Shown: positions 27,911 through 56,552 of the stretch, in pieces
How the letters are laid out: every line of letters starts with the position of its first letter
Position numbering within the stretch: the first letter of the stretch is position 1
Source of the DNA: a virus
Direction: 5' to 3' (one strand)
DNA: 62,354 bases
Virus record (IMG/VR): IMGVR_UViG_3300042868_011200
Location: 1 to 62,354 of that record
Notes under the pieces: model-generated
The model's database searches: none
Seen by the model: only the letters and a program-made list of their open reading frames with translations
Told to the model about the DNA's origin: nothing
Position numbers and translations under genes: made by a program

Positions 27911-28360
27911 ATGGCAAACGGTAAATCATACGGTGTTACATTTCCATTTAGGGATTCATTTGATGGGAAATATTTAGACACTACTGACTTTGAGGACGAT
28001 GAAATTAGAAGTAGTTTAATTCATTTACTTCTCACAAGAAAGGGTTCTAGGTATTTTTTACCTGATTTTGGGACACGTTTATATGAATATATATTTGAAC
28101 CTCTTGATGGACCAACCTTTAATCAAATCGAGGCTGAAATCAGGGATTCTGTTGAAAAATATATTCCAAATTTACTTATTAATAAAGTTTCAGTTTATGC
28201 GGCAACTGATGATTTAGTTGAATCAGTTGTTCAAGATGGAGTTAATACATTTAATTTACCGGGTAGGAATAGTGTTGAATACACTGCAAAAGTAAAAATT
28301 GATTATACAATTACAAGTAATGTATTTAATCCGAGTGATTTTATAATTATTAATATATAA
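27911..28360 (+). CDS. 25: Baseplate wedge protein, gp25-like
   Basis: A 149-residue protein of the GPW/gp25 family, a core wedge subunit that contacts the sheath start ring and is universal in contractile tails. The typical order is seen: an N-terminal strand with FPFRDSFDGKYL, the helix DDEIRSSLIHLLLTRKGSR, the signature YFLPDFGTRLYEYIFEPLD, then the helix QIEAEIRDSVEKYIPNL and closing strands. Length fits T4 gp25 (132). It is followed after three bases by gp6, the same order as in T4-type and R-type pyocin clusters. Assignment is secure. Confidence 0.9.
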   Translation: MANGKSYGVTFPFRDSFDGKYLDTTDFEDDEIRSSLIHLLLTRKGSRYFLPDFGTRLYEYIFEPLDGPTFNQIEAEIRDSVEKYIPNLLINKVSVYAATDDLVESVVQDGVNTFNLPGRNSVEYTAKVKIDYTITSNVFNPSDFIIINI

Positions 28361-28363
28361 AAT

Positions 28364-30202
28364 ATGGCAAACAAACAAATTTCATACACAACTAGAGACT
28401 TCCAGAACATTAGACAGGAGTTGATAAATTTTACAAAAACTTATTATCCTGATTTAGTTGCTAACTTTAATGATGCGGCAATCTTTAGTGTTTTTATGGA
28501 TTTGAATGCTGCCGTAACAGATAACTTACACTATCACATTGATAGAAGTATCCAAGAAACAGTATTACAATTTGCACAACAGAGGTCATCAATCTACAAT
28601 ATTGCTAGAACTTATGGATTAAAAATACCAGGACAAAGACCATCGGTTGCGTTATGTGAGTTTTCAATAACGGTACCGGCTTTTGGAGATGCTGAAGATT
28701 TGAGATATTGTGGTATTTTAAGAAGAGGAAGTCAAGTTCAGGGAGCGGGACAAATATTTGAAACAATATATGATATTGATTTTGCATCTGATTTTGGTAG
28801 TGATGGAACCGTTAATCGATTGGTAATTCCAAATTTTGACCAAAACAATATTTTAATTAATTATACAATTGTTAAAAAAGAACCAGTTGTTAATGGAGTT
28901 ACAAAAGTATTCCGTAAAACAATTTCAAATGCAGAATCAAGACCTTTCTATGAATTGTTCTTACCTGAAAGAAATGTACTAGGTGTTACAGGTGTTCTAT
29001 TAAAAGATGGTACAAACTACACTAATGTTCCTTCAGCTCAAGAATTTTTGGCACTTCCAAATAGATGGTATGAAGTTCAAGCATTAGCTGAAGATAGAAT
29101 TTTTATTGAAGACCCAACTAAAACTTCAGACACACCTGGAGTTAAAGTAGGAAAATATTTGCAAACAAATACAAGATTTATAACAGAATACACTCCTGAA
29201 GGATTTATGAAAATGACTTTTGGAGGAGGTAATACTTCTACTGACGAATTACTTAGAGAATTTGCAAGAAACGGAAACCCTCTTAACTTAGCAAAATATC
29301 AAAATAATTTTTCACTCGGCTCAACACTGAAATCAAACTCAACGTTGTTTGTTCAATATAGAATTGGAGGAGGAATTGGGTCAAATCTTGGAGTAGGTAT
29401 TCTCACTAACATAGGTACAATAACTTTTGTTGTAAATGGACCGTCACAAACCACTAATAATAGTGTGATTAGTTCTTTATCTTGTAATAATACAACCGCA
29501 GCAATTGGTGGTGCGAATATACCTACAACTGAAGAGGTTAGAAATTATGTAACATTTAATTTCTCCGCTCAGAATAGAGCGGTTACTGTCAATGACTATG
29601 AGGCAATTATAAGAAAAATGCCGTCACAATTTGGAGCGCCAGCAAAGGTCACAATTACTGAAGAAGACAACAAAATTTTAATAAATGTTTTATCGTATGA
29701 TTCTGACGGTAAACTAACCGCACAAATTTCTAACACATTAAAAACAAATATTGCAAATTATCTTTCAAATTATAGAATGATAAATGATTATGTTGTTGTA
29801 ACAACTGCTGAAGTAATTGATTTAATGTTTGACATTTCTTTGGTCTTAGATGCAACTCAAAATCAGGGAGTTGTAATATCAAATGCTATTACAAAAATTT
29901 CTGAATACATGAGTCCTGAAAATAGAAACTTAGGGGAAAATGTTAACATATCTGAAATTAGAAGAATCCTACAATCTGAAGATGGAGTAATATCGGTGGC
30001 CGATATTAGTGTATTTAATAAAGTAGGAGGTAAGTATTCATCCTCTGAAACATCACAAAGGTACTCAGACCCCGTGACCAAAAAAATTGAATTAATTGAT
30101 GAGACAATTTTTGCTCAACCAAATCAAGTATATCAAGTAAGGTTCAATAATGATGACATTAAAATAAGAGTCAAAAATCTATCGACTGTTAATTTCTCGT
30201 AA
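28364..30202 (+). CDS. 6: Baseplate wedge protein, gp6/gpJ-like
   Basis: A 612-residue protein of the baseplate J/gp6 family that forms the inner iris ring of the baseplate. The N-terminus has the family pattern ISYTTRDFQNIRQELINF, an aspartate-rich DLNAAVTDNLHYHIDRSIQE helix, and an S-S-I-Y-N-I-A-R-T-Y-G-L stretch. The C-terminal half carries the EVRNYVTFNFSAQNRAVTVN / DYEAIIRKMPSQFGAPAKV block typical of gp6, followed by an alpha-beta domain. Gene order gp25-gp6 and coupling support the call. The usual length of gp6 is about 660 residues, so it is complete. Confidence 0.85.
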   Translation: MANKQISYTTRDFQNIRQELINFTKTYYPDLVANFNDAAIFSVFMDLNAAVTDNLHYHIDRSIQETVLQFAQQRSSIYNIARTYGLKIPGQRPSVALCEFSITVPAFGDAEDLRYCGILRRGSQVQGAGQIFETIYDIDFASDFGSDGTVNRLVIPNFDQNNILINYTIVKKEPVVNGVTKVFRKTISNAESRPFYELFLPERNVLGVTGVLLKDGTNYTNVPSAQEFLALPNRWYEVQALAEDRIFIEDPTKTSDTPGVKVGKYLQTNTRFITEYTPEGFMKMTFGGGNTSTDELLREFARNGNPLNLAKYQNNFSLGSTLKSNSTLFVQYRIGGGIGSNLGVGILTNIGTITFVVNGPSQTTNNSVISSLSCNNTTAAIGGANIPTTEEVRNYVTFNFSAQNRAVTVNDYEAIIRKMPSQFGAPAKVTITEEDNKILINVLSYDSDGKLTAQISNTLKTNIANYLSNYRMINDYVVVTTAEVIDLMFDISLVLDATQNQGVVISNAITKISEYMSPENRNLGENVNISEIRRILQSEDGVISVADISVFNKVGGKYSSSETSQRYSDPVTKKIELIDETIFAQPNQVYQVRFNNDDIKIRVKNLSTVNFS

Positions 30203-41320: not shown

Positions 41321-44300
41321 GCAAGTATATATGTCCTCCACAAAGTCCTAGCGGAGCTGGAACATTTTCAGACGCTTTGGTCGGCCTTCAGACAACTCAA
41401 GGAGGAGGACTCACCCTTGCTAATTTTGCATTTACAAATAAGATAACAGAAAAAGTTAATAGAAATTTTGATACTGGTGTTTTTTCAGACCCAATAACTT
41501 TATCTGATTTAAATATTACGTCAACGGCTCAGGCTCAAAAAATATATGACGTTAATTTTAAAGTTTATCCTAATTTTGATGAAACTAATATTTTAAATTT
41601 TGTTGCATACGGTCCATTAAATAAAAGATTTTCATCTGCGGTTATTAATATTATAAATTATTTCCCAGCAGCATTAGAAGTATCATCAATAAGAAATGAC
41701 TTTACCAACGGGACAACCGCAACAAATATTTCATATAATGAGGAAGAAGATATTACAAATTTCTCAGTAGACGCATCAGTCCTAAGAAATCCATTTTCTA
41801 TCAATTTTACAAAAAACTCAACCCAAATTTTAAAATCTTTAGAATTTGAGGTTTCAAAATATAGAAATCTAACTGTTTATTTTACTGATTATATTTTAAA
41901 AACAACAGGAGGTACGTTTGGTGTTGTAAATTTAACTGCAACTACATCAACATCGGCAGGAACCCTATCATTCTCAGTACTTGGAAATCCATTTGGAACA
42001 GGTGTGACAGAAACATATGAAGATATAGTAATAAGACCTAATGATTATGTGGTTAATGAAGTTTTTAATTTAGAACTTGATGAAGTTGAAGAGTTATTAT
42101 TAAACAGATATAGTTATCCAATTTATACTTCTAAATTTAAAATTCTGAAAGAATCGGATGACGGTAGTCAATTTATACAACCACAAAGTATAACATGGCC
42201 TTTAAATGGTTCATGGAACATTGATATACAAACACCGGCTTTTACATACTACTTAAAACAATTAGATACTATTGGACAAAGTTTAGACGAGTACCAAACA
42301 GATATCCTCAATAGATTCTATACGACCGATTCACTCAAAGAGTTTGATACCCCCGACCAAAAAGTACAAAAAACATTAAAATTATACGGAAGGAGTTTTG
42401 ATGAAACAAAAAAATATATTGACTCAATATCACATATGGTTTCAGTCAATTATATTGTTGGAGACGACATTCCCGATAAATTACTACCTAATTTAGCTCA
42501 AACATTAGGATGGTCAACTAATATCTCACCGATACAAAACAATAGTTTTTTTAGTACAATATATGAAACTATTGATAGTGAATTTCCTGGACAAGCAACT
42601 TCGCCAACTTTAGACGAACTCCAAAATCAATATTATAGAAGTTTGATTTTAAATTCAGGTTATTTGTTTAGGTCTAAAGGTACTAGAAAGGCAATAGAGT
42701 TTTTATTAAATTTTATTGGAGCTCCCGAAGCTTTAATTGATTTCAATGAATATATTTATTTGGCAGATGATAAGATACCACTAACAAGATTTAATGAATT
42801 TTATAGTACAATTTTAGGGGGAACCTATAGACCACAAGTAGTTGTTTATGACCCTTTAAACATTTATAAATTTAACGGAGTTCAATATACTGCTTTTACA
42901 ACATCAACATCAATTCAAGATGTGACATTAACAATAAATGATTTTCCAATTGATTCTGATGGGTATCCAAAAATGATAACTGAATCCGATAGTTTCTTTT
43001 TCCAAAAAGGAGCCGGTTGGTTTGAATCTACCCCACAACATAGAAGTCCTGAAATAATTGACACCAATTTAAGTACATTTACTGGACAAAATATAGATGT
43101 ACAGACCGCTTTAGAACCATTCACTTATGGTGAAAAATATCTTGATAGATATAGAAATTTCCCATATTTGGGAATTGGTTTTGAATTATTAAAAACAATT
43201 GATAACAAAAAATCTTGGTCAGATGAACAATTAGGACTTAGAAAAAATGCCGATGGTAATTTTGATGCCTATTATGAAGTTAGCAATGACAAATTAGTTT
43301 TAAATGTTAAAAATGTTGATTTATTTTTAAATCCAGGACAAGCTTTAGTATACGATGTTTGGTATTTGTCTAACACTAAAAGTTATCCAATTCCAATTAC
43401 AGGACTTTCTTCACCTTACCCTCAAACTGGAGGAACAGACTGGACAGTTATTAGTCCAAAACCACAACAAAAAGATTTCTTTGAATTTAAAGAAACTTTT
43501 TGGAAAAACATGATTAATGTAAGAAATAGACAACAATCATCCGATGGTAAAACTAGCGGATACCCAACACTACAATCTATATTTTGGAAGTACTTAACCA
43601 TGTACCAAGATACTGGAATTCAAAATGATGGATTTACTTATGGTAAAATGATTGAATATATTAATGGTATTGGTGATTATTGGATTCGTTTAGTGGAACA
43701 ATTTGTACCCGCGACCACAATATGGAATACGGGAACAAGAATTGAGAATTCAATTTTCCACAGACAAAAATTTGTATATAGACCCCAAAGAGGATGTTTG
43801 ACAGTACAAATACCTATAGAAGGACCTTCAGGTGGGGGTAGTGTTGATAGTAGTGATTGTAATGGAAGTAAAGTTTCAATCTTAGTACCATTAAGAGGAA
43901 CTGATTTATTAGCTGAAATACAAAGAATTGAACGTGAATTTGATTGTACACAACCTGGTGATTTATTACCTGTCTTTGGGGGAACAGTTAAAGAGATTAG
44001 TTATTGTTTTGATTTAACTATAACAAGAAATAACCCTCCAATAGGACTTACATCAGTATATACAACTCAAATTTTTTGTACACCTACTTCTTTTACTCTA
44101 CCTAATATAATACCAACAACTGATAGATGGCAAGATTTTATTACACAAGGAGTTAATTACCTGTCAGTTGATTTAGCCCAACAAGGATTATCAATTTTAT
44201 ATGACCCTGAAAATGATATTATCTTTATAACTAGTGAAGTTTGTGATGATTTAACAAGAATTGATTTTAATTTAACGATAAAAGTTATAAAAATTGATTG

Positions 44301-44346
44301 TTCTGGACGCTCAAAAGGCGGAGGAACAAAAGGAGGAGGTAAATAA
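41317..44346 (+). CDS. P2 gpI-like tail/baseplate protein (1009 aa)
   Basis: The centre of this protein matches the layout of phage tail protein I. A helix ends in QTDILNRFYTTDSLKEFDTP (near residue 330) and a segment L-P-N-L-A-Q-T-L-G-W follows. The strongest match is YRSLILNSGYLFRSKGTRKA followed by IEFLLNFIGAPEA (residues about 440-470), the helix-K-G-T-helix hallmark of gpI and gp7-type wedge proteins. It is flanked by beta-rich N- and C-terminal parts. A Gly-rich tail (RSKGGGTKGGGK) closes it. In P2-type phages gpI joins the wedge to the fibres, which fits the switch here from baseplate to adhesin genes. The stop overlaps the next ATG by one base. Confidence 0.68.
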   Translation: MSKYICPPQSPSGAGTFSDALVGLQTTQGGGLTLANFAFTNKITEKVNRNFDTGVFSDPITLSDLNITSTAQAQKIYDVNFKVYPNFDETNILNFVAYGPLNKRFSSAVINIINYFPAALEVSSIRNDFTNGTTATNISYNEEEDITNFSVDASVLRNPFSINFTKNSTQILKSLEFEVSKYRNLTVYFTDYILKTTGGTFGVVNLTATTSTSAGTLSFSVLGNPFGTGVTETYEDIVIRPNDYVVNEVFNLELDEVEELLLNRYSYPIYTSKFKILKESDDGSQFIQPQSITWPLNGSWNIDIQTPAFTYYLKQLDTIGQSLDEYQTDILNRFYTTDSLKEFDTPDQKVQKTLKLYGRSFDETKKYIDSISHMVSVNYIVGDDIPDKLLPNLAQTLGWSTNISPIQNNSFFSTIYETIDSEFPGQATSPTLDELQNQYYRSLILNSGYLFRSKGTRKAIEFLLNFIGAPEALIDFNEYIYLADDKIPLTRFNEFYSTILGGTYRPQVVVYDPLNIYKFNGVQYTAFTTSTSIQDVTLTINDFPIDSDGYPKMITESDSFFFQKGAGWFESTPQHRSPEIIDTNLSTFTGQNIDVQTALEPFTYGEKYLDRYRNFPYLGIGFELLKTIDNKKSWSDEQLGLRKNADGNFDAYYEVSNDKLVLNVKNVDLFLNPGQALVYDVWYLSNTKSYPIPITGLSSPYPQTGGTDWTVISPKPQQKDFFEFKETFWKNMINVRNRQQSSDGKTSGYPTLQSIFWKYLTMYQDTGIQNDGFTYGKMIEYINGIGDYWIRLVEQFVPATTIWNTGTRIENSIFHRQKFVYRPQRGCLTVQIPIEGPSGGGSVDSSDCNGSKVSILVPLRGTDLLAEIQRIEREFDCTQPGDLLPVFGGTVKEISYCFDLTITRNNPPIGLTSVYTTQIFCTPTSFTLPNIIPTTDRWQDFITQGVNYLSVDLAQQGLSILYDPENDIIFITSEVCDDLTRIDFNLTIKVIKIDCSGRSKGGGTKGGGK

Positions 44347-46511
44347 TGGCATTAATAAATTATAATATTTTTTTAACAGGGGATTGCCAAAACAACGGTA
44401 ATGGTACTTTTTTATTATCGACTAACGGAGTTTCACCACCGATAAGTATAAATTGGTTAAACCCTATTTCAGGTAATTCATTTAGTTCTCAAACAATAGT
44501 AAATGGAATATATTATGTAACAGGATTAAGTGCTAGTAGTTATAGTTTTTATTTGAGTGACGCCCTTAATAACTCTACAAATGAAATTCCTTTTGTAATT
44601 ACTTCTTCTTGTACTATTAATATTGGACTAATACAGAATACAACTTGTGGAGGAAATAACGGAGCAATTTCTGCGACTACAGATACTAATTATGGATTGA
44701 ATACAATACAACTATTTAAAGATTCTGTATTGTATAGGACAACTACAACAACTACAAATGGCGCCAATTTCTTTAATTTACCACCAGGAGTTTATAGTGC
44801 TAAAGTTACTGACGTTGGTGGGTGTATTGGGTTTAGTAATAATGTAATTATAAATAATTCAACTAATTTAGATTTTGGATATTATGTTGTTGATAGCCCA
44901 CAATGTTATGCAAACTCAGGTAGAATAATTATAACAGGAGTAACTGGTACACCTCCATATACTTACCAATGGTCAAATTTACCTTATTTAAATTTTACAG
45001 ATAGTGCAACTGGACTTACTTCAGGTGGTTATGGTATTACAATAACTGATTTTTATGGATGTTCTACTACAAAAGCCGCTGCGGTTAATGTTGGTAAGCA
45101 ATTATCTTTAGTTAATTTTACTCAAAATACCCCAACTTGTTTTAATGCTGACGGCTCGGTAACATTTATAATAAGCGGAGGAACTCCACCATACTCATAT
45201 AATCTTAATACTGGAGACCAACAAATATTATTATCTAATACTGTAACATTTAGTGAACTTACGTCAGGTAATTATACGTTAAGTGTTACTGATTTAGGTC
45301 TTTGTAGATTTAATCAAGATTTTACTTTGACGGCTAATAGAAGTTTCACCGTATTACAGACACAAATAGTTAATGCTTCTTGTCAAGAATTGGGTAAAAT
45401 TTTTATCTCAGTCCAAGGGGGATTCCCACCTTATTATTATAAATTAGTTTCTTCAGGAAGTCCTGAAATTAGACAGACATCTATTTTGAATAGTACTTCA
45501 TATTCAAATTTAGAGGCTGGACTTTATACGTTAATGATTGAAGATTCTATAGGTTCATGTGTTTATGAAGAACAGATTACTATCTTAACAACATCTAACT
45601 TTACTTTATCCTTAACACCACAGGATACCACTTGTGGGAATCCAAACGGTTCAATTACTGCTAATGTTATAACTGATAGTACAGGTCTTACATTTACATA
45701 TCAATTATCTAATGGGGACCAATCCGCACCTACTACGGCAACAACTTATACTTTTTCAAATCTACCATCAGGTCCGTATAGTTTATCTGTGACAGATAGT
45801 GATTCGTGTAATGCGTCTGAATATGCATTTATTAATACGTCTACACCGTACTCTGTGATTTTAACCCCAACATCCGCATTTAACGGGAGTGGAGGTACAA
45901 TTTCGGCAATGATAAAAGAAACTTCAGGACCTTTTAATTTGACATGGAGTAATAATGTAAATGGGCAAACAGGGTATTATTTGACAGGATTAACCGCTGG
46001 TACATATAGTTTAACAGTTAGTGGAACTAATGGATGTCAACAGTTTGTTACCGCAAATGTTGGTAATATAATTAGTAGTTCGACAACAGTGACTTATATT
46101 TACTCAAGTGGGTCTTCAGTTCGTACTGATAGTACAAGTTTTTCATTACAAAGTATGATGTATTCGGGGTACACTAATTTAACTCAAAATGCCCAAAATT
46201 GTGTTTTAAGTTCTGCAACATTTAGCTTAAGGGTTACAATAGATACTGACGAATATGTATTTCCATTTTATAGTACTAAATCTTTTAGTCGAATACCGAC
46301 TTTAGATTATTTCGCACCAATACTTGAAAATGCGGTACTATCTATTCCATATATTGAGACTTGTACAGTAAATGCGACAAATAACACCATTTCAGTAACT
46401 TCACAAGTCATTAATGGTGTGCAATATTATAAAGATGATACAATTACGTTTGATATTTTAATATATTATAATGTGAAATGTCTCTCAATAAACGATATTA
46501 CATGTCCTTAA
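44346..46511 (+). CDS. SprB-repeat adhesin-like phage protein (721 aa)
   Basis: About seven tandem modules of 75-90 residues follow the SprB-repeat pattern: C-x-x-x-x-G-x-I near the start, a G-G-x-P-P-Y-x-Y turn, then L-x-x-G-x-Y-x-x-x-V-x-D-x-x-x-C. Clear copies include FIISGGTPPYSYNLNTGDQQ with SGNYTLSVTDLGLC, and ITGVTGTPPYTYQW with GYGITITDFYGC. A distinct 150-residue end domain (SFSRIPTLDYFAPIL) follows. SprB is the mobile cell-surface adhesin of gliding flavobacteria, so these domains tie the phage to that host group. There is no signal peptide and it lies in the tail operon, so it is most likely a virion fibre rather than a secreted protein. The repeat call is firm; receptor function is inferred. 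Confidence 0.78.
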   Translation: MALINYNIFLTGDCQNNGNGTFLLSTNGVSPPISINWLNPISGNSFSSQTIVNGIYYVTGLSASSYSFYLSDALNNSTNEIPFVITSSCTINIGLIQNTTCGGNNGAISATTDTNYGLNTIQLFKDSVLYRTTTTTTNGANFFNLPPGVYSAKVTDVGGCIGFSNNVIINNSTNLDFGYYVVDSPQCYANSGRIIITGVTGTPPYTYQWSNLPYLNFTDSATGLTSGGYGITITDFYGCSTTKAAAVNVGKQLSLVNFTQNTPTCFNADGSVTFIISGGTPPYSYNLNTGDQQILLSNTVTFSELTSGNYTLSVTDLGLCRFNQDFTLTANRSFTVLQTQIVNASCQELGKIFISVQGGFPPYYYKLVSSGSPEIRQTSILNSTSYSNLEAGLYTLMIEDSIGSCVYEEQITILTTSNFTLSLTPQDTTCGNPNGSITANVITDSTGLTFTYQLSNGDQSAPTTATTYTFSNLPSGPYSLSVTDSDSCNASEYAFINTSTPYSVILTPTSAFNGSGGTISAMIKETSGPFNLTWSNNVNGQTGYYLTGLTAGTYSLTVSGTNGCQQFVTANVGNIISSSTTVTYIYSSGSSVRTDSTSFSLQSMMYSGYTNLTQNAQNCVLSSATFSLRVTIDTDEYVFPFYSTKSFSRIPTLDYFAPILENAVLSIPYIETCTVNATNNTISVTSQVINGVQYYKDDTITFDILIYYNVKCLSINDITCP

Positions 46512-46517
46512 TATTAG

Positions 46518-47495
46518 ATGCCGTCAATATCAATAAATTCAATAAATGGAGTACCACCTTATCAGGTATATTTTTGTGATATTAATCAAATAACATGTGT
46601 TACGGCAACAACTATTAATACGACCGTACCACCTAATGTAGTTTTAACTATACCACCACCATATGATATTTTACCCGAAGTCTTAATAAAGATTATAGAT
46701 GTTACAGGATGTCAATTTACCCAAGTCTATACTTGTGTTACACCAACCCCAACACCATCAATTACACCAACTAATACGCCAACACCATCTATAACTCCAA
46801 CTAATACGCCAACACCATCTATAACACCATCAATTACACCAACTCCAGGCACACCAACCCCAACACCTACGGTTACTCCAACAACCACTGTAACACCAAC
46901 TGTTACAAGAACTCCAAACCCAACACCACCTCCAAGACCACTTAAAGCTCTTTTATTTATAGAACCGTATTCAGGTTCTAATGATATTGGTGAATACATG
47001 TTTAATCTTGGACACACATTTTATGGGTTTAGTAATGGAACACAACCAAGTCCTACTTTAACTGCATTTACTGGCGAAATGAGAAGCTATGTTGAATTTA
47101 GTGGATGGACAACTGGAAATTTCCCAAGAATTATTGAAGTTGATGTACCACAAGTTGATGGTGGAGTTGATAGTTTTGGTAATCCCGTTTACAAATATAA
47201 TTTTATTACAAATGTAATATCTGCAAATACTATCGGAGGACAGGCTTGGTATACGTGGTTAATTCCAACAGGATTAACAAATAACTTAATCCAAACAGAA
47301 ATCGAATTAAGTTTAGATAATCCTAATTTATTTGTAACCAATAAAACAGAACCTACTATCTATCAAAATGTGTTTCCGTATTTTGGTGGATATATTTCTC
47401 CAGGATATTATAGAGTTTATACAACATTTCCGTCACTTAATTTTCAATTATTTGATAATCAAAATATATACTTTAAAGGGGGAACAGTAGAGTAA
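46518..47495 (+). CDS. Adhesin with SprB-like start and Thr/Pro stalk (325 aa)
   Basis: The first 75 residues (ISINSINGVPPYQVYFCDIN, ending VTGCQFTQVYTCV) are a half-length relative of the SprB module and a paralogue of the 82-aa protein at 54090. Residues 76-135 are a Thr/Pro/Ser stalk made of TPTPSITPTN-type units. The C-terminal 190 residues are a beta-rich domain (LKALLFIEPYSGSNDIGEYM, later YFGGYISPGYYRVYTT) not recognised. Stalks of this kind are O-glycosylated in some Bacteroidetes proteins; that would be inference here. Start six bases after the previous stop; coupled downstream with a one-base gap. Confidence 0.65.
   Translation: MPSISINSINGVPPYQVYFCDINQITCVTATTINTTVPPNVVLTIPPPYDILPEVLIKIIDVTGCQFTQVYTCVTPTPTPSITPTNTPTPSITPTNTPTPSITPSITPTPGTPTPTPTVTPTTTVTPTVTRTPNPTPPPRPLKALLFIEPYSGSNDIGEYMFNLGHTFYGFSNGTQPSPTLTAFTGEMRSYVEFSGWTTGNFPRIIEVDVPQVDGGVDSFGNPVYKYNFITNVISANTIGGQAWYTWLIPTGLTNNLIQTEIELSLDNPNLFVTNKTEPTIYQNVFPYFGGYISPGYYRVYTTFPSLNFQLFDNQNIYFKGGTVE
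46739..46935 (+). repeat. In-frame Thr/Pro repeat array
   Basis: Degenerate direct repeats of ACNCCNACN-type triplets coding for T-P-T-P-S-I-T-P-T-N units. It shares a 17-base exact match (46791-46807) with the minus-strand adhesin gene, present there in inverted orientation at 62173-62189 and 62203-62219. Confidence 0.8.
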
Positions 47496-47496
47496 A

Positions 47497-50400
47497 ATGG
47501 CATTTCCGTATAAAAATCCAATATCACCAATACAAGTTTTAGGACCACAGTCCGTTAACCGAGATGTGGTGTTTGGTACTCATTTTAGTACAAATGGGAC
47601 CGGTGGTTATATGGAGGTTTTCTCAATTAGCGGATTAACATATGAAATTCCTTCAGGTCAAACAGGTTCAATAGAATATTCAGGTAATACAATTCCAATT
47701 AATTTTATAAAAGGAAATGGAGCAGCATATTCTCCTAATGTATTAATTTTAAATTCTGACAACATTTCTTCAGGTAGAAGAAAACTTGGAATGCTTGTAT
47801 ATGTTTATGAGTTTGACCAAGTATACCAATATGATATACCAAATTACGAACAATTATGGACGGCAGCAACTGCATCAACAAATTGTGTGGTTATAAATGA
47901 ATTTGGAACAACTGTAAGAAATAACACTATACAAGGTCAAGATTTTATTAATGCTTGGACCGCATCAACAATTGAAGGTATTAATGGTGTTGTTAGAGCA
48001 AATGCAAGATGGAAAAAATATTGGGGTAATAATTTATCACTAACTGGAGGTTCATATAATGGTATTACTAATACTTTAACTCTTGTTAATATAACAGGAG
48101 GAACAGTTAATATTACAGGTTTTAGTGGAGGTGGTGGAGGAGGAGGAGATGGTATCACAGGAGGTACATTTAACTTATCTAATGGTGATTTAACTTTATC
48201 ATCGTCCGCTGGCACTATAACTGTATCCGGATTTTTGTATGGTTCAGGTACTACTAACACACTTCCAAAATATGTTACATCTTCAGGTTTTACCAATAGT
48301 CAAATAACCGACGATGGGTCTAATGTGACGATAGGTGGTAATTTAACAACGATAAGTGCGGATTTATTAGTTAATCAGGGTGTTACTGCAACAACAATAT
48401 CCGCAACAACATATTTTAATCTACCTATAAGTACGGTTACTGGTAGTACAGGAATATCCGCAACAACAAGTAATGGTACGGTAACAATAACAAATACCGC
48501 TCCTGACCAAACCGTAACTATAACCGGAGGTACCAATATACAAATTGTTGGTGCTTATCCAAATTTTGGAGTTAACTTTACAGGTTCTACAACAGGTGGT
48601 TCGGTATCAGGAGCGTACCTACCGTTAAGTGGGGGAACCGTTACGGGTAATACAATATTTACAAGTGGATTAACCGTTAGTTATATTGATTTTGACACAA
48701 CTCCAAATGTACCATCACCAACAGGAGGAACCTTATATTTTGACTCGACTGAAAACGCTTTATCTTATAAACCAATTACACCAAGTAATGATGTCACGGT
48801 AAATTTAGGACAAGAAACTTTAGTTAGAATTTATAATGATTTAGGTTTTCAAATTAATAACGGACAAGCTCTTCACATTACAGGGGCAACATCAGGTTCA
48901 CCAACAGTTTCTTTGGCGATTGGTACAGGAGGTGATTCAGTGCAATTTCAAATATCAGGTATCGCAACTCACGATATTCCAGATTCTTCGTTTGGATTTA
49001 TGACGGATTTTGGTGTTGTTAGAGATTTAAATTTAACAGGGTTTACGGTTGGGGAGCAAATTTATTTATCTCAGACAGTTCCGGGTGGTTTTTCATCTTA
49101 TTCGGGTCTTTCTTTTACAGGTAGAACATGCGAAGTTGGACACATTTTAGATAATTCGGCTTCAGGAAAAATACAAGTAGCAATATTAAATGAGATTGAA
49201 GGTACTATTATTACAACTCAAGAAAACAATATACTTGCTGCAAACAACAGCTCAACAGGTCTTTTCGAATTTAGTGGATTATCAATTAGCACCCCATCTG
49301 GAACAACATTTAATGTAGCACCTGTACAGGGTTGGATTATTGATAATGTAACCGAACCTGCGAATCCAACAATCCAACTTATTATATATCCTGGTTCAAC
49401 AGGAAATACCGCTTTATATGTTTCATCGGCAACAGAAACATACATTTTACTTACAAGTGGGTTAACAATTACCCAACAAACAACATTCCCAACACCACAA
49501 CAAAGAAGACAAAATTTATATCTTGGAAAATTCGGTCATGCAAACAGACAATATTTGATAAATGCATTTAATGAACCTGACTCGTCTTTATCTCCAGTTT
49601 CTCAATTAAGAGATATGTTTACCCCAATTAAATTAATTAATGAAGGAGTAATTGTATCGGCAAATGGAGTAAACTTAAATTTTAATACATCAGCTGGTGT
49701 TCTATACGGACTTGGACTTGGATATATTACAAATAAATTAAACCCAAATAGTTTATCAATATCAGGAACTAGCCCTTGTACATTCCAATACAGGACACAA
49801 ACAGGTGGAACCGCATCAAATACAACTTTAATTGACCCTACAGTCTATGATAACAATGGTGTAGTAACGGCTGTCGGGGGTGGTTCAAATACATCCACCA
49901 ATCAAAGAATATATTTAGTTCAGAATGGTCAATTTAGAATACAATATGGACAGCAAGAATATGGTAATTTAGCAGCGGCAATTGAAGCATCTCAAAATGA
50001 GGCATTCACAACATTTAGTAATTTTAGAGATAATGCAATATTAATTGGTATTTTATCTGTCAATAAAAATGCAACCAATTTATCTGATACAACACAAGCA
50101 AGATTCTTACTTACATCAAAGTTTGGAGAGACGGTAGGTGCTGCTGGAGGTATATCAACAACAAATCTCCAACAGGCTTATAATAATTCATCAACACCTG
50201 AAATAGTAACTAATTCGGCAGAAGGAGCATTATCTATTCAAAATGGGACGGGTGCCGCTGATAATGTAACAAATTTATTTGAGGGTAGAAATACCGCAGC
50301 ATCACTCACATCATTTATAAGGGCTGACGGAGCATTCTCGGGAACATCAATATTTGGAACGGGTTTAACTGCAACAACGGTATCCGCAACTACTTACCTT

Positions 50401-51096
50401 AATTTACCGTCAGCGACATTTACAGGAGGAACTGTTACTGGACCAACTAATTTTACAAACGGATTAACCGCCAATACAATATCCGCAACAACATATGAAA
50501 ATTTACCTTCGTTTAATTATGTTCAAATAACAGGAACAACACAGTTTTCTGCGGGGACAAATAATAATTTAAATTTTAGTGGTATTAATATGACCATTAC
50601 AAGTGGTTCTAATAATACATTAATATTCTCAGCCGGAACTGGAGGAGGTGGTGGTGGAGGAGTAACAAGTATAACAACAGGAGCTGGGTTATCTGCAAAT
50701 TCAACAACAGGAGCAATAACAATACAAGCAACCGCAACAACTACATTTGGAGTATCTGTGGATGGTTCAGGAGGTGTTATCACAACAGGTCAAAAAGGTT
50801 ATGTTAGAATACCATATAATTTTACAATAACTTCTTGGACCTTAATAGGGTTTCCTTCAGGGTCAATAACTTTTGATATTTGGAGAGTAAATAACGCCAT
50901 ACCGACTGTTGCCAATACAATAATTGGTGTAGGAGGAATAAAACCGAGTTTAACATCATCAACTTATGCAACAAGTTCTACACTTACAAACTGGACAGCA
51001 ACTGGTTTAACAGGAGATGTTATTGGATGGAATGTTGACTCCGCAACAACTACAACAACTGCAACTTTACAATTATTTGTAACTAAAACTTCATAA
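47497..51096 (+). CDS. Long tail fibre, probable receptor-binding protein (1199 aa)
   Basis: The protein is a Gly/Thr/Ser/Asn-rich beta fibre. Repeated cassettes I-S-A-T-T-Y-x-N-L-P occur at least four times, with gT(V/I)TG turns and a fibre-type block YLPLSGGTVTGNTIFTSGL. Two Gly-rich hinges occur (near residues 210 and 1050). The last 110 residues (TSWTLIGFPSGSITFDIWRV ... WNVDSATTTTTATLQLFVTK in pieces) look like a compact jelly-roll tip, the usual site of receptor contact. It begins one base after the previous stop. It is by far the best candidate for the main receptor-binding fibre. No peptidase or chaperone domain is seen at its end. Fibre nature is clear; receptor unknown. Confidence 0.75.
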   Translation: MAFPYKNPISPIQVLGPQSVNRDVVFGTHFSTNGTGGYMEVFSISGLTYEIPSGQTGSIEYSGNTIPINFIKGNGAAYSPNVLILNSDNISSGRRKLGMLVYVYEFDQVYQYDIPNYEQLWTAATASTNCVVINEFGTTVRNNTIQGQDFINAWTASTIEGINGVVRANARWKKYWGNNLSLTGGSYNGITNTLTLVNITGGTVNITGFSGGGGGGGDGITGGTFNLSNGDLTLSSSAGTITVSGFLYGSGTTNTLPKYVTSSGFTNSQITDDGSNVTIGGNLTTISADLLVNQGVTATTISATTYFNLPISTVTGSTGISATTSNGTVTITNTAPDQTVTITGGTNIQIVGAYPNFGVNFTGSTTGGSVSGAYLPLSGGTVTGNTIFTSGLTVSYIDFDTTPNVPSPTGGTLYFDSTENALSYKPITPSNDVTVNLGQETLVRIYNDLGFQINNGQALHITGATSGSPTVSLAIGTGGDSVQFQISGIATHDIPDSSFGFMTDFGVVRDLNLTGFTVGEQIYLSQTVPGGFSSYSGLSFTGRTCEVGHILDNSASGKIQVAILNEIEGTIITTQENNILAANNSSTGLFEFSGLSISTPSGTTFNVAPVQGWIIDNVTEPANPTIQLIIYPGSTGNTALYVSSATETYILLTSGLTITQQTTFPTPQQRRQNLYLGKFGHANRQYLINAFNEPDSSLSPVSQLRDMFTPIKLINEGVIVSANGVNLNFNTSAGVLYGLGLGYITNKLNPNSLSISGTSPCTFQYRTQTGGTASNTTLIDPTVYDNNGVVTAVGGGSNTSTNQRIYLVQNGQFRIQYGQQEYGNLAAAIEASQNEAFTTFSNFRDNAILIGILSVNKNATNLSDTTQARFLLTSKFGETVGAAGGISTTNLQQAYNNSSTPEIVTNSAEGALSIQNGTGAADNVTNLFEGRNTAASLTSFIRADGAFSGTSIFGTGLTATTVSATTYLNLPSATFTGGTVTGPTNFTNGLTANTISATTYENLPSFNYVQITGTTQFSAGTNNNLNFSGINMTITSGSNNTLIFSAGTGGGGGGGVTSITTGAGLSANSTTGAITIQATATTTFGVSVDGSGGVITTGQKGYVRIPYNFTITSWTLIGFPSGSITFDIWRVNNAIPTVANTIIGVGGIKPSLTSSTYATSSTLTNWTATGLTGDVIGWNVDSATTTTTATLQLFVTKTS

Positions 51097-51355: not shown

Positions 51356-53434
51356 ATGGCAATTTATTATTGGAGAGGACTTACCGGTTCAACATGGGGT
51401 ACTGCGGGTAATTGGAGTACAGGTAGTACTTCTACTCTTGGGGGTGCAGTTCCAACTAATGCGGATGATGTAATATTTGACGCTAATTCTTCTGCTTGTA
51501 CTGTGAACACCACCACAAGGGTATGTAAATCAATTAATTTTTCCGCATATACAAATACCATCACAATGACTTTTGGAATAAGTGTCGGTGCGACAGGTGC
51601 GGCAGGAGTTCAAGTTATATTAGGTAGTGGAATGACAATTAATGGTACTGGTCCATTAAATATTGCATCAGTAAACACAATATTAAGAAGTAATGGTAAA
51701 TTTTGGCCTAATAGTTTAGTTCTTGCACCATCCATCGTGTCTGGTCAAATTTATACATTACAAGATAATTGGTCAATTGGGGGTGATTATACAATGGGAA
51801 TCGGGTTTGGTTTTACTCTTTTCTTGTCGGGAGGTAATTTAAATATTGGGGGTTCATTTTTTATGAATGCACAACAAACTGGAAATAATCTAAGTAATAT
51901 AACATTAACTGGCTCGGGAATTATAAGTGGTTCAAGTTCTATGAGTTCATACTCAAATTTTATAATTAATACTAGTGGAACTTATAGTTTGGGTAATTTT
52001 AGTATTAGAAATACTAATTTAATTTATTCTTCAGGAACTATTAACACAATTTCTGGGACAACTGTAACTCATGGCACTGGCACTCGTGCAATTAATGTAA
52101 ACGGGTCAACATCACTATCCCCCCCACTATCAAGCTCAACAGGAATTAACTTTTTTAATTTCTCAACTAGTGATGCTACGACAACAACCTTAACAACTCC
52201 AATTTGTGTTATTGGTACTTTTGGTAATGTGGGTTCACTTATAGCTGGAAATGATGTCATATTAAATGGAAGTAATATTTACTTAAACGGAAATTTTTCA
52301 ACTAGCGCCAAAACTATGTCGGGTACCTCCCAATTTATTTTTCAAGGGACTGGAACTTATTTTCATGATTCTTTTACTCCCGTCAGCACATTTGCACCCG
52401 GTGTTGGAAGTAATTTTATAGTTAATACTCCAGGTACAATGACAGTAACATCACAATATCTTGTTAGAAGAGGAGGATTGTTTAATGTTATATCAGGTAC
52501 AGTTATAACAAATGGGGCCATTGTAACAATAACTGATGCGTTTACAAGTTCTTTTAGTAGTCCAGGTGTTGTATGGGGAGGGTTGTATTTAGATAACCCC
52601 AACCCAACAAATAGAAATTCAATATTTAGTGCGGTCACCGATTTCCAAACTTCAGGTGAGGTTAGAACATTCCAAACAACCAACACTCCTTTTATATTTG
52701 GTAATGTATTATTAACTGGTTCTTGTAGATTCAATAGTATAACAACAGGTTCGATTCAAGGAACAGGAACCATAAGAATGAGGAGTGCTGGATTTTTAAG
52801 TATGAGTGGCTCTTCTGGTTCGGCAGCTCAAGGTTATTTAGGGTGTAATGTGTCATTTGAATCAGGTTCTAATCAAATAGATATTATTGGTACATTAAGA
52901 TATAGAGATGGAACTATAACATACACTAGTGGTGTTATTAATGCAACAAATAATACCTTAAATTTATTAGCGGCAAGTACTTTAAATACTGAAGGTATGA
53001 CTTGGGGTACTATTACCAATTCAGCGTCATTAACTGTAACATTAAATTCTACATTATCCGCCAACACAATTACTGGAGGTAATAGTATATCATTTGGAGG
53101 TTCATTTGGTTTTTATACTAATAATTTAAACTATACAATAGCTGGAGGTACCCTAACATTAGGAGCTAACAATTTTTATTACGTTAGGGAGTCTTTATTT
53201 ACAAGAGGAACCTTAGCATCAAGAGCGTTATTCACATCCTCAAGTGCATCGTTAATATCTTACTTTACATTATCCAATTCCGCAACACAGGATGTTGGTT
53301 TTACAAGTGCGACAAGAATAAATAGTTCTTTAGGTCAAACTATTTATACTAGAAAAGGAGTGCTAACTACTACAACTAATTGGAATTTATTAACTAATCC
53401 TGTAACTGTTTACAGGCCATTTATATTACAATAA
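51356..53434 (+). CDS. Beta-helix-like spike/adhesin (692 aa)
   Basis: The N-terminal domain reads MAIYYWRGLTGSTWGTAGNW, then GGAVPTNADDVIFDANSSAC, a W-x-x-x-x-x-W-N opening followed by P-x-x-x-D-D-V-x-F-D. This is the cap of secreted beta-helix proteins. The remaining 600 residues are short strands alternating with Gly/Ser/Thr/Asn turns (e.g. GNVLLTGSCRFNSITTGSIQ), as in parallel beta-helix spikes. There is no signal peptide. It is a paralogue of the next gene, sharing the N-terminal cap. A structural spike or decorating adhesin is likely; depolymerase activity cannot be inferred because no acid pair stands out. Confidence 0.68.
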   Translation: MAIYYWRGLTGSTWGTAGNWSTGSTSTLGGAVPTNADDVIFDANSSACTVNTTTRVCKSINFSAYTNTITMTFGISVGATGAAGVQVILGSGMTINGTGPLNIASVNTILRSNGKFWPNSLVLAPSIVSGQIYTLQDNWSIGGDYTMGIGFGFTLFLSGGNLNIGGSFFMNAQQTGNNLSNITLTGSGIISGSSSMSSYSNFIINTSGTYSLGNFSIRNTNLIYSSGTINTISGTTVTHGTGTRAINVNGSTSLSPPLSSSTGINFFNFSTSDATTTTLTTPICVIGTFGNVGSLIAGNDVILNGSNIYLNGNFSTSAKTMSGTSQFIFQGTGTYFHDSFTPVSTFAPGVGSNFIVNTPGTMTVTSQYLVRRGGLFNVISGTVITNGAIVTITDAFTSSFSSPGVVWGGLYLDNPNPTNRNSIFSAVTDFQTSGEVRTFQTTNTPFIFGNVLLTGSCRFNSITTGSIQGTGTIRMRSAGFLSMSGSSGSAAQGYLGCNVSFESGSNQIDIIGTLRYRDGTITYTSGVINATNNTLNLLAASTLNTEGMTWGTITNSASLTVTLNSTLSANTITGGNSISFGGSFGFYTNNLNYTIAGGTLTLGANNFYYVRESLFTRGTLASRALFTSSSASLISYFTLSNSATQDVGFTSATRINSSLGQTIYTRKGVLTTTTNWNLLTNPVTVYRPFILQ

Positions 53435-54078
53435 TGCCACCAAGATACTTTAGGTCAGGAGCAACTTTAAATTGGAACACAGCGGGAAATTGGAGTGCAA
53501 CTCCATTTCCATCATATAGTGCCGGAGCAATACCAACCGCCTCCGACGATGTTTTTTTTGAGTTACAAAGTGCCAACTGTACTTTTAATGTTGCGGGTGT
53601 TACGTTATCAATTAACTTTAGTTCCTATACAAACACATTTGCTTTTGGTAATTTTAATTTAAGCGTTGCTGGTAATATTATTTTAGGTTCAGGAACCACA
53701 TTTACAAGAGGTACTGGAACAATTATTGCCACAGGTAATCCTAGTTTAACATCTAACGGTAAAATACTCAACATCCCATTAGTTTTCCAAACCGCTGGTA
53801 GGACATTAACTTTTGTTGATAATTGGATTTTAACCTCAGGAATTACCATAACAGGGACCTTAGCTTCCCCTATTACCGCAAGAACCCAAACTTTAGGCGT
53901 TCAGAGAAAATTAACACTACCACAAAACACAGGTTCTGTAGATATTGACTATTGTGTTGCTAGAGATTTAGACAGTGGTGACGGAACCACTATTTGGAAT
54001 TATAAAGGAACTCAAACTAATTGTGTGAATTGGTTGAATTTACCAACACAACCTCCTACTATATTTGAAATTATTTAA
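53434..54078 (+). CDS. Short paralogue of the beta-helix spike (214 aa)
   Basis: Starts in the previous stop (TAATG). It repeats the spike's cap: GATLNWNTAGNWSATPFPSY, then AGAIPTASDDVFFELQSANC, followed by INFSSYTNTFAFGNFNL versus INFSAYTNTITMTFGIS in the longer copy. It then shortens to about four helix turns and ends with a different module (GSVDIDYCVARDLDSGDGTT, then WNYKGTQTNCVNWLNL). Tandem duplication followed by deletion and tip exchange would explain it. The short form could decorate the same site with another binding tip. Confidence 0.68.
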   Translation: MPPRYFRSGATLNWNTAGNWSATPFPSYSAGAIPTASDDVFFELQSANCTFNVAGVTLSINFSSYTNTFAFGNFNLSVAGNIILGSGTTFTRGTGTIIATGNPSLTSNGKILNIPLVFQTAGRTLTFVDNWILTSGITITGTLASPITARTQTLGVQRKLTLPQNTGSVDIDYCVARDLDSGDGTTIWNYKGTQTNCVNWLNLPTQPPTIFEII

Positions 54079-54089
54079 TATTTAATAAT

Positions 54090-54338
54090 ATGTCATGTAC
54101 ATTACAAATAGAAAGTATTTCAGGTAATTCTCCATATACAATTTATGTATGTGATTATACTTTATATAAGTGTGAACTAATTGGTATATATACTGAACCA
54201 TTAACATATCCATTTTATATTGATGTTCCTGAGAATATGGAAGGTTCGTCTAAAATTATTGTAAGAATTGTTGATAATAGTGGATGTACAAAATTTAATT
54301 TATACGAGTCAGTTACCCAACCAACACCAATAACTTAA
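54090..54338 (+). CDS. Small SprB-like module protein (82 aa)
   Basis: An 82-residue single module: MSCTLQIESISGNSPYTIYV, C-D-Y-T-L-Y-K-C, and IIVRIVDNSGCTKFNLYESV, ending in T-Q-P-T-P-I-T. It parallels the first 75 residues of the protein at 46518 (I-x-S-I-x-G-x-x-P-Y-x-x-Y-x-C-D, then V-x-I-x-D-x-x-G-C). It ends exactly where that protein begins its Thr/Pro stalk, so it looks like a free-standing or truncated copy of the adhesin head. Base composition is similar to its neighbours. Confidence 0.6.
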   Translation: MSCTLQIESISGNSPYTIYVCDYTLYKCELIGIYTEPLTYPFYIDVPENMEGSSKIIVRIVDNSGCTKFNLYESVTQPTPIT

Positions 54339-54380: not shown

Positions 54381-56552
54381 ATGGCATTAGGATTTCAGGA
54401 TTGTTGTAATTCAGCAAGTTATTTTTATTTAAATGGCATTCCTGCCACAGTTTCTCAATTTGAAACTTATTATATTACTACATCACAGGGTGAAAATTTT
54501 TGTGCGACTTATGTGGATGTTCCCGCATTGAATTATCAACCACCAACGTATAATTTATTGGAAATGATACAATCGGTGGATTGTGATGACTGTAAAACAT
54601 CTAATAATTATAGTTGCCCAACATCCGAGTTGATTTTAATAAGTCAGGTAAATGCTGGGTCTATTGCAGGGTCTGATTGTCAAGTTAAGACAATAATGCC
54701 AATGTATGTAGAATGTGTGAGTGTTAATCCTGTATTAGATACTGGACTTGACGGCTCCGTTAGTTTATTTGTAACAGGAGGAACACCCCCTTATTTTTTC
54801 TATAGTGCCGGTACAACTACAGCATTAGGTAACAATACATCAAACGGTAATGTATATCCAATTTTCCAAAATTTAGGAGAAGGAACTTATAACATAACCA
54901 CCGTTGATTCTAATGGTGATTTTTCTATTACGGTTAGTTGTACACTAAACGCATTACCACCTCAACTATCAGTAACTTGCGCTCCAACAAATATATCAGT
55001 ATATGGTGCTGATAATGGAAGTATTAATCTATTAGTATCTGGTGGAATACCACCATACTCATATTCTTATTTAGGGAATAATATTACACTTCCGATTAGT
55101 AATTTATTTGCGGGAACTTATGAAATAACTGTTACTGATAATGGAGGAGAATACCAACAAGTTGAAGTTGTTAACTGCACAGTTAACCAAGCTTCACCAG
55201 TTAATTATCCTGAAAACATATGTATGAATTTTACATTATGTAGCACACAGTTCTTCCTACAATTTGAAAGAGATTCTACGGATATAAATTATAGAGCAAG
55301 TTATATATGTACAAATCCATCTGTGATGGGTTTACCTAGCTTATCTATATTTTATGGAAGTAATGGTTGGACAACTTCTTCACAATCAACAACTCAGAAT
55401 CCTGAATTCTCAGTAAATTGTGGTGTAAACTATGTTGGTCTTTTATTCTTTGCTGTATCATATACCCCTACCTCTACAATACCAATTGGTTCGTGGTATA
55501 CAAATCAAGGAGGAGTTTTAACGGGAGTTTCTCCTATTATTGTATCACCTGGATTATGTCCAGTTATTGTAACCCTACAATCAATCGGGGAATTTTGTAC
55601 ACAAACGCCAACACTATTACCTACAGTAGTAGTTGAAGGTGTTGGTGGAATAGGACCATATACATTTAATATAACGGCCTCTAATGGACAGGTCACTTCA
55701 AACACATCACCATCATTCCAACTGTCTAATGGAACATATTCTATTGTGGCCGTTGATAGTACAGGGATACAAAGCCAACCTGTTTCATTTACAGTACCAA
55801 CAAATAATGGAGTAGATGTTTTATTTGGAATTGATTCTTGTGTTACTTCAAATTTAACAACAAATTGGTTAAATCAAATATCAGGACCAAGTGCTAATCC
55901 TGTGATTCAAGATGGTGAGGCTTTAGAGTTAAATGCGTCTATGTCAAATTACATTGATTTTTCATTTTTACCTGACGGAGCGTCATTCACTGGAAAAATA
56001 AAGATTTCATTTACAAGTAATTTTACGGGAGGTGATGAGTCACACTCACTTCCAACGGACTCTAATATTATAGTTAGTCCAATATTAACATTAAACAACA
56101 TTACGACTAATAATGTTAGTACTAACTACATGAATGGAGTTATTCCAACCAATTTCGCAACCCCAAGTACTTCCCAAGATGGAACATATGGAACATGGTA
56201 CTCAAATGGGCAAGGTAATTCTTGTTGTAAAGATATAGAAAATGAAGGATTACAATGGTTCCAAGGACTACAGTGGGTTAGCCCGACATTAACGTTTAAT
56301 AATACGACAGTATTAAGTACAATATTCTCGATATATACCAAAAACATGGTACCTTTTTATAACTACAAATGTAGAAATGGAGCTTTCTGTGGTGCAAAAC
56401 TATCGAATAGTGTGACAATTCAGTTACAAAATTTAACAAAAGTTTCAGGATGTATAAATGTCTCGGGTATAAAAAAATTAATAGAAGGAACAGTTAAAAA
56501 TGATAGTAATGGAGACGCTGGATGGGTTACACAACCATCACCATCTTGTTAA
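54381..56552 (+). CDS. Second SprB-repeat-containing fibre protein (723 aa)
   Basis: The N-terminal 90 residues are Cys-rich (MALGFQDCCNSASYFYLNGI, CATYVDVPALNYQPPTY, VDCDDCK) and form a distinct attachment-like domain. Residues about 110-275 contain two SprB-type modules (VSLFVTGGTPPYFFYSAGTT; INLLVSGGIPPYSYSYLGNN with GTYEITVTDNGGEY). A third, weaker one lies near residue 420 (VVVEGVGGIGPYTFNITASN). The C-terminal 250 residues (VDVLFGIDSCVTSNLTTNWL onward) form an unrecognised globular domain with paired cysteines. The architecture is head-attachment, repeats, tip, as expected for a side fibre. Confidence 0.68.
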   Translation: MALGFQDCCNSASYFYLNGIPATVSQFETYYITTSQGENFCATYVDVPALNYQPPTYNLLEMIQSVDCDDCKTSNNYSCPTSELILISQVNAGSIAGSDCQVKTIMPMYVECVSVNPVLDTGLDGSVSLFVTGGTPPYFFYSAGTTTALGNNTSNGNVYPIFQNLGEGTYNITTVDSNGDFSITVSCTLNALPPQLSVTCAPTNISVYGADNGSINLLVSGGIPPYSYSYLGNNITLPISNLFAGTYEITVTDNGGEYQQVEVVNCTVNQASPVNYPENICMNFTLCSTQFFLQFERDSTDINYRASYICTNPSVMGLPSLSIFYGSNGWTTSSQSTTQNPEFSVNCGVNYVGLLFFAVSYTPTSTIPIGSWYTNQGGVLTGVSPIIVSPGLCPVIVTLQSIGEFCTQTPTLLPTVVVEGVGGIGPYTFNITASNGQVTSNTSPSFQLSNGTYSIVAVDSTGIQSQPVSFTVPTNNGVDVLFGIDSCVTSNLTTNWLNQISGPSANPVIQDGEALELNASMSNYIDFSFLPDGASFTGKIKISFTSNFTGGDESHSLPTDSNIIVSPILTLNNITTNNVSTNYMNGVIPTNFATPSTSQDGTYGTWYSNGQGNSCCKDIENEGLQWFQGLQWVSPTLTFNNTTVLSTIFSIYTKNMVPFYNYKCRNGAFCGAKLSNSVTIQLQNLTKVSGCINVSGIKKLIEGTVKNDSNGDAGWVTQPSPSC

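Follow-up and report, generated by a model that had tools for sequence, protein, structure and literature searches.

A conserved chain of seven SprB-type Ig-like modules in the baseplate operon of large uncultured phages, probably a side-fibre stalk

We describe a 721-aa tail-operon protein in which seven SprB-type Ig-like modules are followed by a C-terminal alpha/beta domain (Table 1). It is encoded in a 62,354-nt stretch of viral DNA, the window of this study (IMG/VR virus record IMGVR_UViG_3300042868_011200). We think that this protein is probably attached to the baseplate and serves there as the stalk of a side fibre, or as an adhesin, holding recognition tips out towards the surface of the host; its location in the virion, its docking, its binding and its host are what we infer. 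If this is right, a widespread group of large uncultured phages encodes, in its baseplate operon, an Ig-like stalk that always has seven modules and whose tips can be exchanged, and stalk and tips together offer a concrete candidate mechanism by which these phages would recognize Bacteroidota hosts. The core running from TGDC to WSNNVNG may then be used as a marker to locate the host-recognition region in these phage genomes.

The protein matched PF13573 (SprB) in four stretches with an E-value of 7.5e-16 and 57.9 bits, well above the curated cut-off of 28, and it shares membership in this family with all 23 distinct aligned homologues (best E 4.7e-27). With a detection profile made from bacterial modules only, leaving out those of phages, we found seven tandem modules with a total of 212 bits, at aa 13-59, 97-168, 183-248, 259-329, 340-413, 426-497 and 507-573. 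As a control we scored 919 shuffles of the protein, and the highest reached 10.9 bits. Six of the seven modules are clear and the first is weak. An earlier sequence-only reading had proposed a protein built of about seven such repeats, and this stands for the count and for the chain through approximately aa 575; the C-terminal fifth (the last ~145 aa, 576-721) is another domain. The VxDxxxC end that it described can be discerned in most of the modules. Its GGxPPY turn is present in strict form in two modules (GGTPPY and GGFPPY), and a third has TGTPPY. Modules 2 to 6 each have one conserved pair of cysteines, found in 22-23 of the 23 sequences, which suggests disulphides.

Table 1. Positions in the window of the SprB-module protein, its parts and the genes around it.
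Feature	Position	Strand	Remarks
gp25-like baseplate wedge protein	27911..28360	+	PF04965, E 2.2e-12
gp6/Baseplate_J-like wedge protein	28364..30202	+	PF04865, E 1e-6; phrog_6, E 1.5e-20
Baseplate-operon protein, 2070 aa	30254..36466		no confident family match
Upstream tail-operon protein, 1009 aa	41317..44346	+	weak sub-threshold Tail_P2_I match
C-terminal domain of the upstream protein (~120 aa)	43942..44304	+	related to the SprB protein's C-terminal domain
SprB protein, 721 aa: seven SprB-type Ig-like modules and C-terminal alpha/beta domain	44346..46511	+	ORF, Pfam, model
Module 1	44364..44609	+	aa 7-88; most diverged; family signature TGDC
Module 2	44619..44864	+	aa 92-173
Module 3	44877..45101	+	aa 178-252; highest conservation between phages
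Module 4	45111..45347	+	aa 256-334; top SprB match, 38.6 bits
Module 5	45354..45593	+	aa 337-416
Module 6	45606..45842	+	aa 421-499
Module 7	45858..46070	+	aa 505-575; signature WSNNVNGQTG
Predicted flexible linker	46071..46139	+	pLDDT below 50
C-terminal alpha/beta domain of the SprB protein	46143..46493	+	aa 600-716; homologous to the upstream protein's C-terminal domain
Next gene	46518..47495	+	short beta-type module, Thr/Pro-rich linker (TPTPTPS...), head of ~180 aa
Tail-fibre-like protein	47497..51096	+	phrog_16641, E 4.8e-23
First of two similar proteins	51356..53434		no confident family
Second of two similar proteins	53434..54078		no confident family
Small stand-alone protein	54090..54338		
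Second SprB-containing protein	54381..56552	+	two Pfam-level modules, third by local model; Hoc-like PHROG
DUF5122/delta-60 protein, 954 aa	59439..62303	-	beta-propeller repeats

The tail operon in which the earlier reading had placed the gene is borne out by its neighbours. Both wedge proteins are encoded upstream on the same strand, and the match to a tail-fibre family lies just downstream. Also upstream are replication genes such as large T4-type phages typically have (UvsX, DnaB and ribonucleotide reductase). The stop codon of the preceding gene overlaps the start codon of the SprB gene (TAATG), and this overlap is nearly universal among the relatives.

The region that follows the SprB gene holds several other proteins of note. 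Sequence related to the head encoded by the next gene lies, in one relative (L007), downstream of the SprB gene. The small stand-alone protein is similar to the N-terminal module encoded by the next gene; common to both are PYxxYxCD and an end like VDxxGC/VTGC, perhaps marking an adaptor module. The two proteins between the tail-fibre-like protein and this small one have similar N-termini (YWRG/YFRS ... WNTAGNWS) and are apparently paralogous. In the second SprB-containing protein the modules are preceded by a separate N-terminal domain, and its PHROG match is to Hoc-like head decoration. The DUF5122/delta-60 protein adjoins the fibre region on the opposite strand, and phrog_15511 matches both this protein and that of the next gene.

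The C-terminal domain is common to two adjacent genes. Aligned with hhalign, the domain profiles of the SprB protein and the upstream protein gave a probability of 97% and an E-value of 6.7e-11, and reciprocal hmmsearch among the relatives gave 1.5e-7 and 9e-7. No further protein in the window significantly matched the profile of the SprB protein's domain. There was no confident match in Pfam, PHROGs or PDB, where the hits were at chance level, and the significant match from Foldseek was a member of the domain's own family only (A0A6J5LD72). Foldseek also gave a likeness to tail sheath, at an E-value of 0.016, which is too weak for us to believe. The role common to the two domains may be docking or oligomerization at the baseplate, with docking a guess on our part. 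The N-terminus of the SprB protein could equally be the anchor.

In an AlphaFold2 model built with 23 natural homologues (mean pLDDT 79, pTM 0.36), seven beta-sandwiches follow one another and an alpha/beta domain comes after them; a pTM this low does not define how the modules are arranged relative to one another. With Foldseek, the solved structures that matched best were portions of the Aureispira grappling-hook protein GhpA (E 5.1e-20), and the next were generic immunoglobulin chains. GhpA was also best in a profile search of PDB (E 4e-4), with phage decoration and neck-whisker proteins close behind, while a single-sequence search of PDB with the 721-aa protein gave no match. The comparison of structures therefore turned up Ig-like chains and GhpA and no unrelated fold. 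Because their best relatives are of these kinds, SprB modules are a Bacteroidota flavour of the Ig-like beta-sandwich domain, and the protein is a tandem Ig-like chain whose gene lies among phage structural genes.

A single scan of viral contigs yielded 40 phage loci with full-length homologues of the SprB protein, at 32-48% identity and on contigs as long as 318 kb; the full-length relatives come from about 20 different contigs of uncultured phages. Across all 20 distinct relatives that we compared, the five upstream genes agree in order and strand, conservation of the genes ends with the SprB gene, and the fibre region after it varies. The number of modules is constant in all relatives and the whole core is conserved. 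Mean identity to the window over these 20 is 72% and 53% for the two preceding genes and 35% for the SprB protein, a pattern that would be as expected for a surface-exposed part.

The history of the modules bears on another proposal of the sequence-only reading, that host adhesin DNA had been captured. Bacterial proteins do align over most of the modules at 25-32% identity, as they might if a piece of a host adhesin gene had been taken up recently. However, modules at the same position in different phages are 36-53% identical, compared with 18-32% for modules at different positions. In a tree of the phage modules with 316 bacterial modules, positions 1-4 each formed a single clade (support 0.96-0.99), position 7 formed one clade but for one bacterial tip, and positions 5 and 6 were less clean. 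The GC, GC3 and codon use of the gene are typical of the phage, and the gene order around it is fixed. Since the modules are position-specific across phages, we give next to no credence to a recent capture, and as a recent event that proposal falls. Because of this likeness by position, the constant number of modules and the clades in the tree, the common ancestor of these phages already had the protein with its seven modules. An old acquisition that predates this ancestor is possible. At the deep nodes phage and bacterial modules are mixed with modest support, and a single origin of all phage modules is not decided by the tree.

We also came across SprB modules in other settings. A 642-kb uncultured phage (L137, LR756502.1 510250-523350) has a frame at 4114 that encodes 1675 aa with approximately 13 strong SprB modules. 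This frame is without the C-terminal domain of the window protein's family, so more than one phage architecture holds SprB modules. Its modules outscore those of the window against bacterial modules and are possibly a younger acquisition. In L047-L049, which are IMG/VR contigs called viral, a protein with a secretion-type N-terminus lies near SprB-like modules, and these contigs may come from bacteria or from another virus.

What follows the core differs between phages. In many relatives the core of ~715 aa is followed, often after a Thr/Pro-rich tether, by one of several mutually unrelated heads. Some relatives, and the window phage, have no fused head after the core; in the window phage, the next gene carries the layout of linker and head that many relatives have fused to the SprB core. 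A search of PDB with a head profile returned nothing. NCBIfam gave no more than weak beta-propeller matches, in one head (L033, E 0.007), so that propeller heads stay an impression of ours. Comparing the heads with the window's DUF5122 protein also gave a negative result. In tail fibres, a stalk that is conserved while its tips are exchanged is a usual signature of host recognition. Many relatives have both parts of it, and the window protein has the stalk with no fused head.

The reading that we prefer puts these parts together. The protein would be a conserved tail component of a large contractile-tailed phage family that probably infects Bacteroidota. Its seven modules, most of them with the conserved cysteine pair, would make a semi-rigid rod, and the C-terminal alpha/beta domain would dock or oligomerize at the baseplate. 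The Thr/Pro-rich tether and variable head beyond this domain would be the recognition tips in relatives, and in the window phage the protein of the next gene would supply linker and head. There is a precedent in phage tentaclins, where an Ig chain bears a binding tip (PMC10743442). When we searched 395 Bacteroidota genomes with the phage's most conserved tail-operon protein to look for a host, we found no match.

The chain could instead serve as a whisker or spacer of the baseplate or tail, stabilizing the particle or holding the fibres and itself binding nothing. The fixed module count and the conservation of the whole core fit such a part, as do the profile matches in PDB, which include a neck-whiskers protein as well as decoration proteins of phages, and several relatives besides the window phage lack a fused head. 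However, in most relatives the head behind the core has been exchanged, and the adjacent baseplate-operon proteins diverge more slowly than the core; we consider a purely structural part unlikely. It could also be that the modules bind glycans weakly, in the manner of Hoc, and keep the phage near its hosts in mucus, algal polysaccharide or biofilm matrix. In other systems, structural Ig-like domains of phages have been connected with attachment to mucin or epithelium (PMC6867891, PMC13370021), and the Hoc-like match of the second SprB protein is in keeping with this. We looked for a glycan-binding signature in the 721-aa protein and did not find one, and, being encoded in the baseplate operon, it is more likely a part of the tail than of the capsid, so adhesion of this type seems to us quite improbable.

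The name of the repeat raises the question of gliding. A chain of SprB type might mimic the gliding adhesin and bind the gliding motors, SprB itself or the polysaccharide tracks. The modules do belong to a family named after SprB, and phage resistance is linked with loss of gliding in F. columnare (PMC6867891). SprB repeats were present in 36 of the 148 genomes of our Bacteroidota sample, and a GldJ match with E below 1e-90 was found in 26 of these 36; only five of the 112 others had one below 1e-85. From this co-occurrence the hosts of the phage may well be gliders. However, GldJ was over the cut-off in 16 of the 36, a long weaker match was found in ten, and because the remaining ten had neither, SprB repeats accompany gliding lineages without being confined to gliding. 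The repeats are enriched near polymorphic toxin genes as well (PMC7073777). The modules are generic Ig-like domains: many other surface proteins of Bacteroidota have them, and so, judged by fold, do grappling hooks. In SprB itself, the motor may be bound by a part other than the repeats. The 721-aa protein has no T9SS sorting domain: TIGR04183 gave an E-value of 0.68 and 10 bits (cut-off 23), at a position in the middle of the protein. By eye, N-termini such as MALINYNIFLTGDCQNN are short and have no basic and hydrophobic stretch. A gliding adhesin would be found in a bacterial genome with gld/spr genes, and this gene lies in a phage baseplate operon. We find no specific support for mimicry of the gliding machinery or for binding to it, and we hold such mimicry to be very improbable. 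It is similarly improbable that the phage contacts host SprB-like adhesins, motors or tracks and is carried by the gliding machinery to the site of entry. Gliding should not be read into the label "SprB repeat" when it is given in a phage.

Phages are well known to carry chains of Ig-like domains, and a phage entry named "SprB repeat" already exists in UniProt. In a literature search we did not find SprB repeats in phages described, and the operon anatomy of the phage SprB-repeat protein appears undescribed. The UniProt/BFVD entry (A0A6J5LD72, uncultured Caudovirales phage) is of the same family, with 714 aa and 41% identity over the whole length (E 8.1e-69), and its C-terminal domain also matches; it is a database entry only, with neither operon anatomy nor function given as far as we could see.

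Among characterized proteins, SprB, the gliding adhesin of Flavobacterium johnsoniae, has the same repeat family (PF13573). SprB is a giant protein, in contrast to the 721 aa of the phage protein, which is encoded in a baseplate operon and has neither the T9SS sorting domain nor, by eye, a secretion-type N-terminus. GhpA (9flp and related entries) is alike in its tandem Ig-like modules and is the best solved relative by both profile and fold, but it is a bacterial surface protein of 5898 aa, and TM-scores over the full chain are low because the orientations of the domains differ. Hoc, tentaclins and the BACON/PKD adhesins are likewise Ig-like chains, sometimes with a binding tip (PMC10743442, PMC13370021). 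Tentaclins have a C-type lectin at their N-terminus and between one and four Ig domains. The window protein is not one of them, as its first module starts at aa 7, no lectin matched in Pfam, and it has seven SprB-type modules with a C-terminal alpha/beta domain. Compared with all of these phage chains, the family described here has its heads at the C-terminus, in relatives, and its gene is in the baseplate operon rather than with the capsid.
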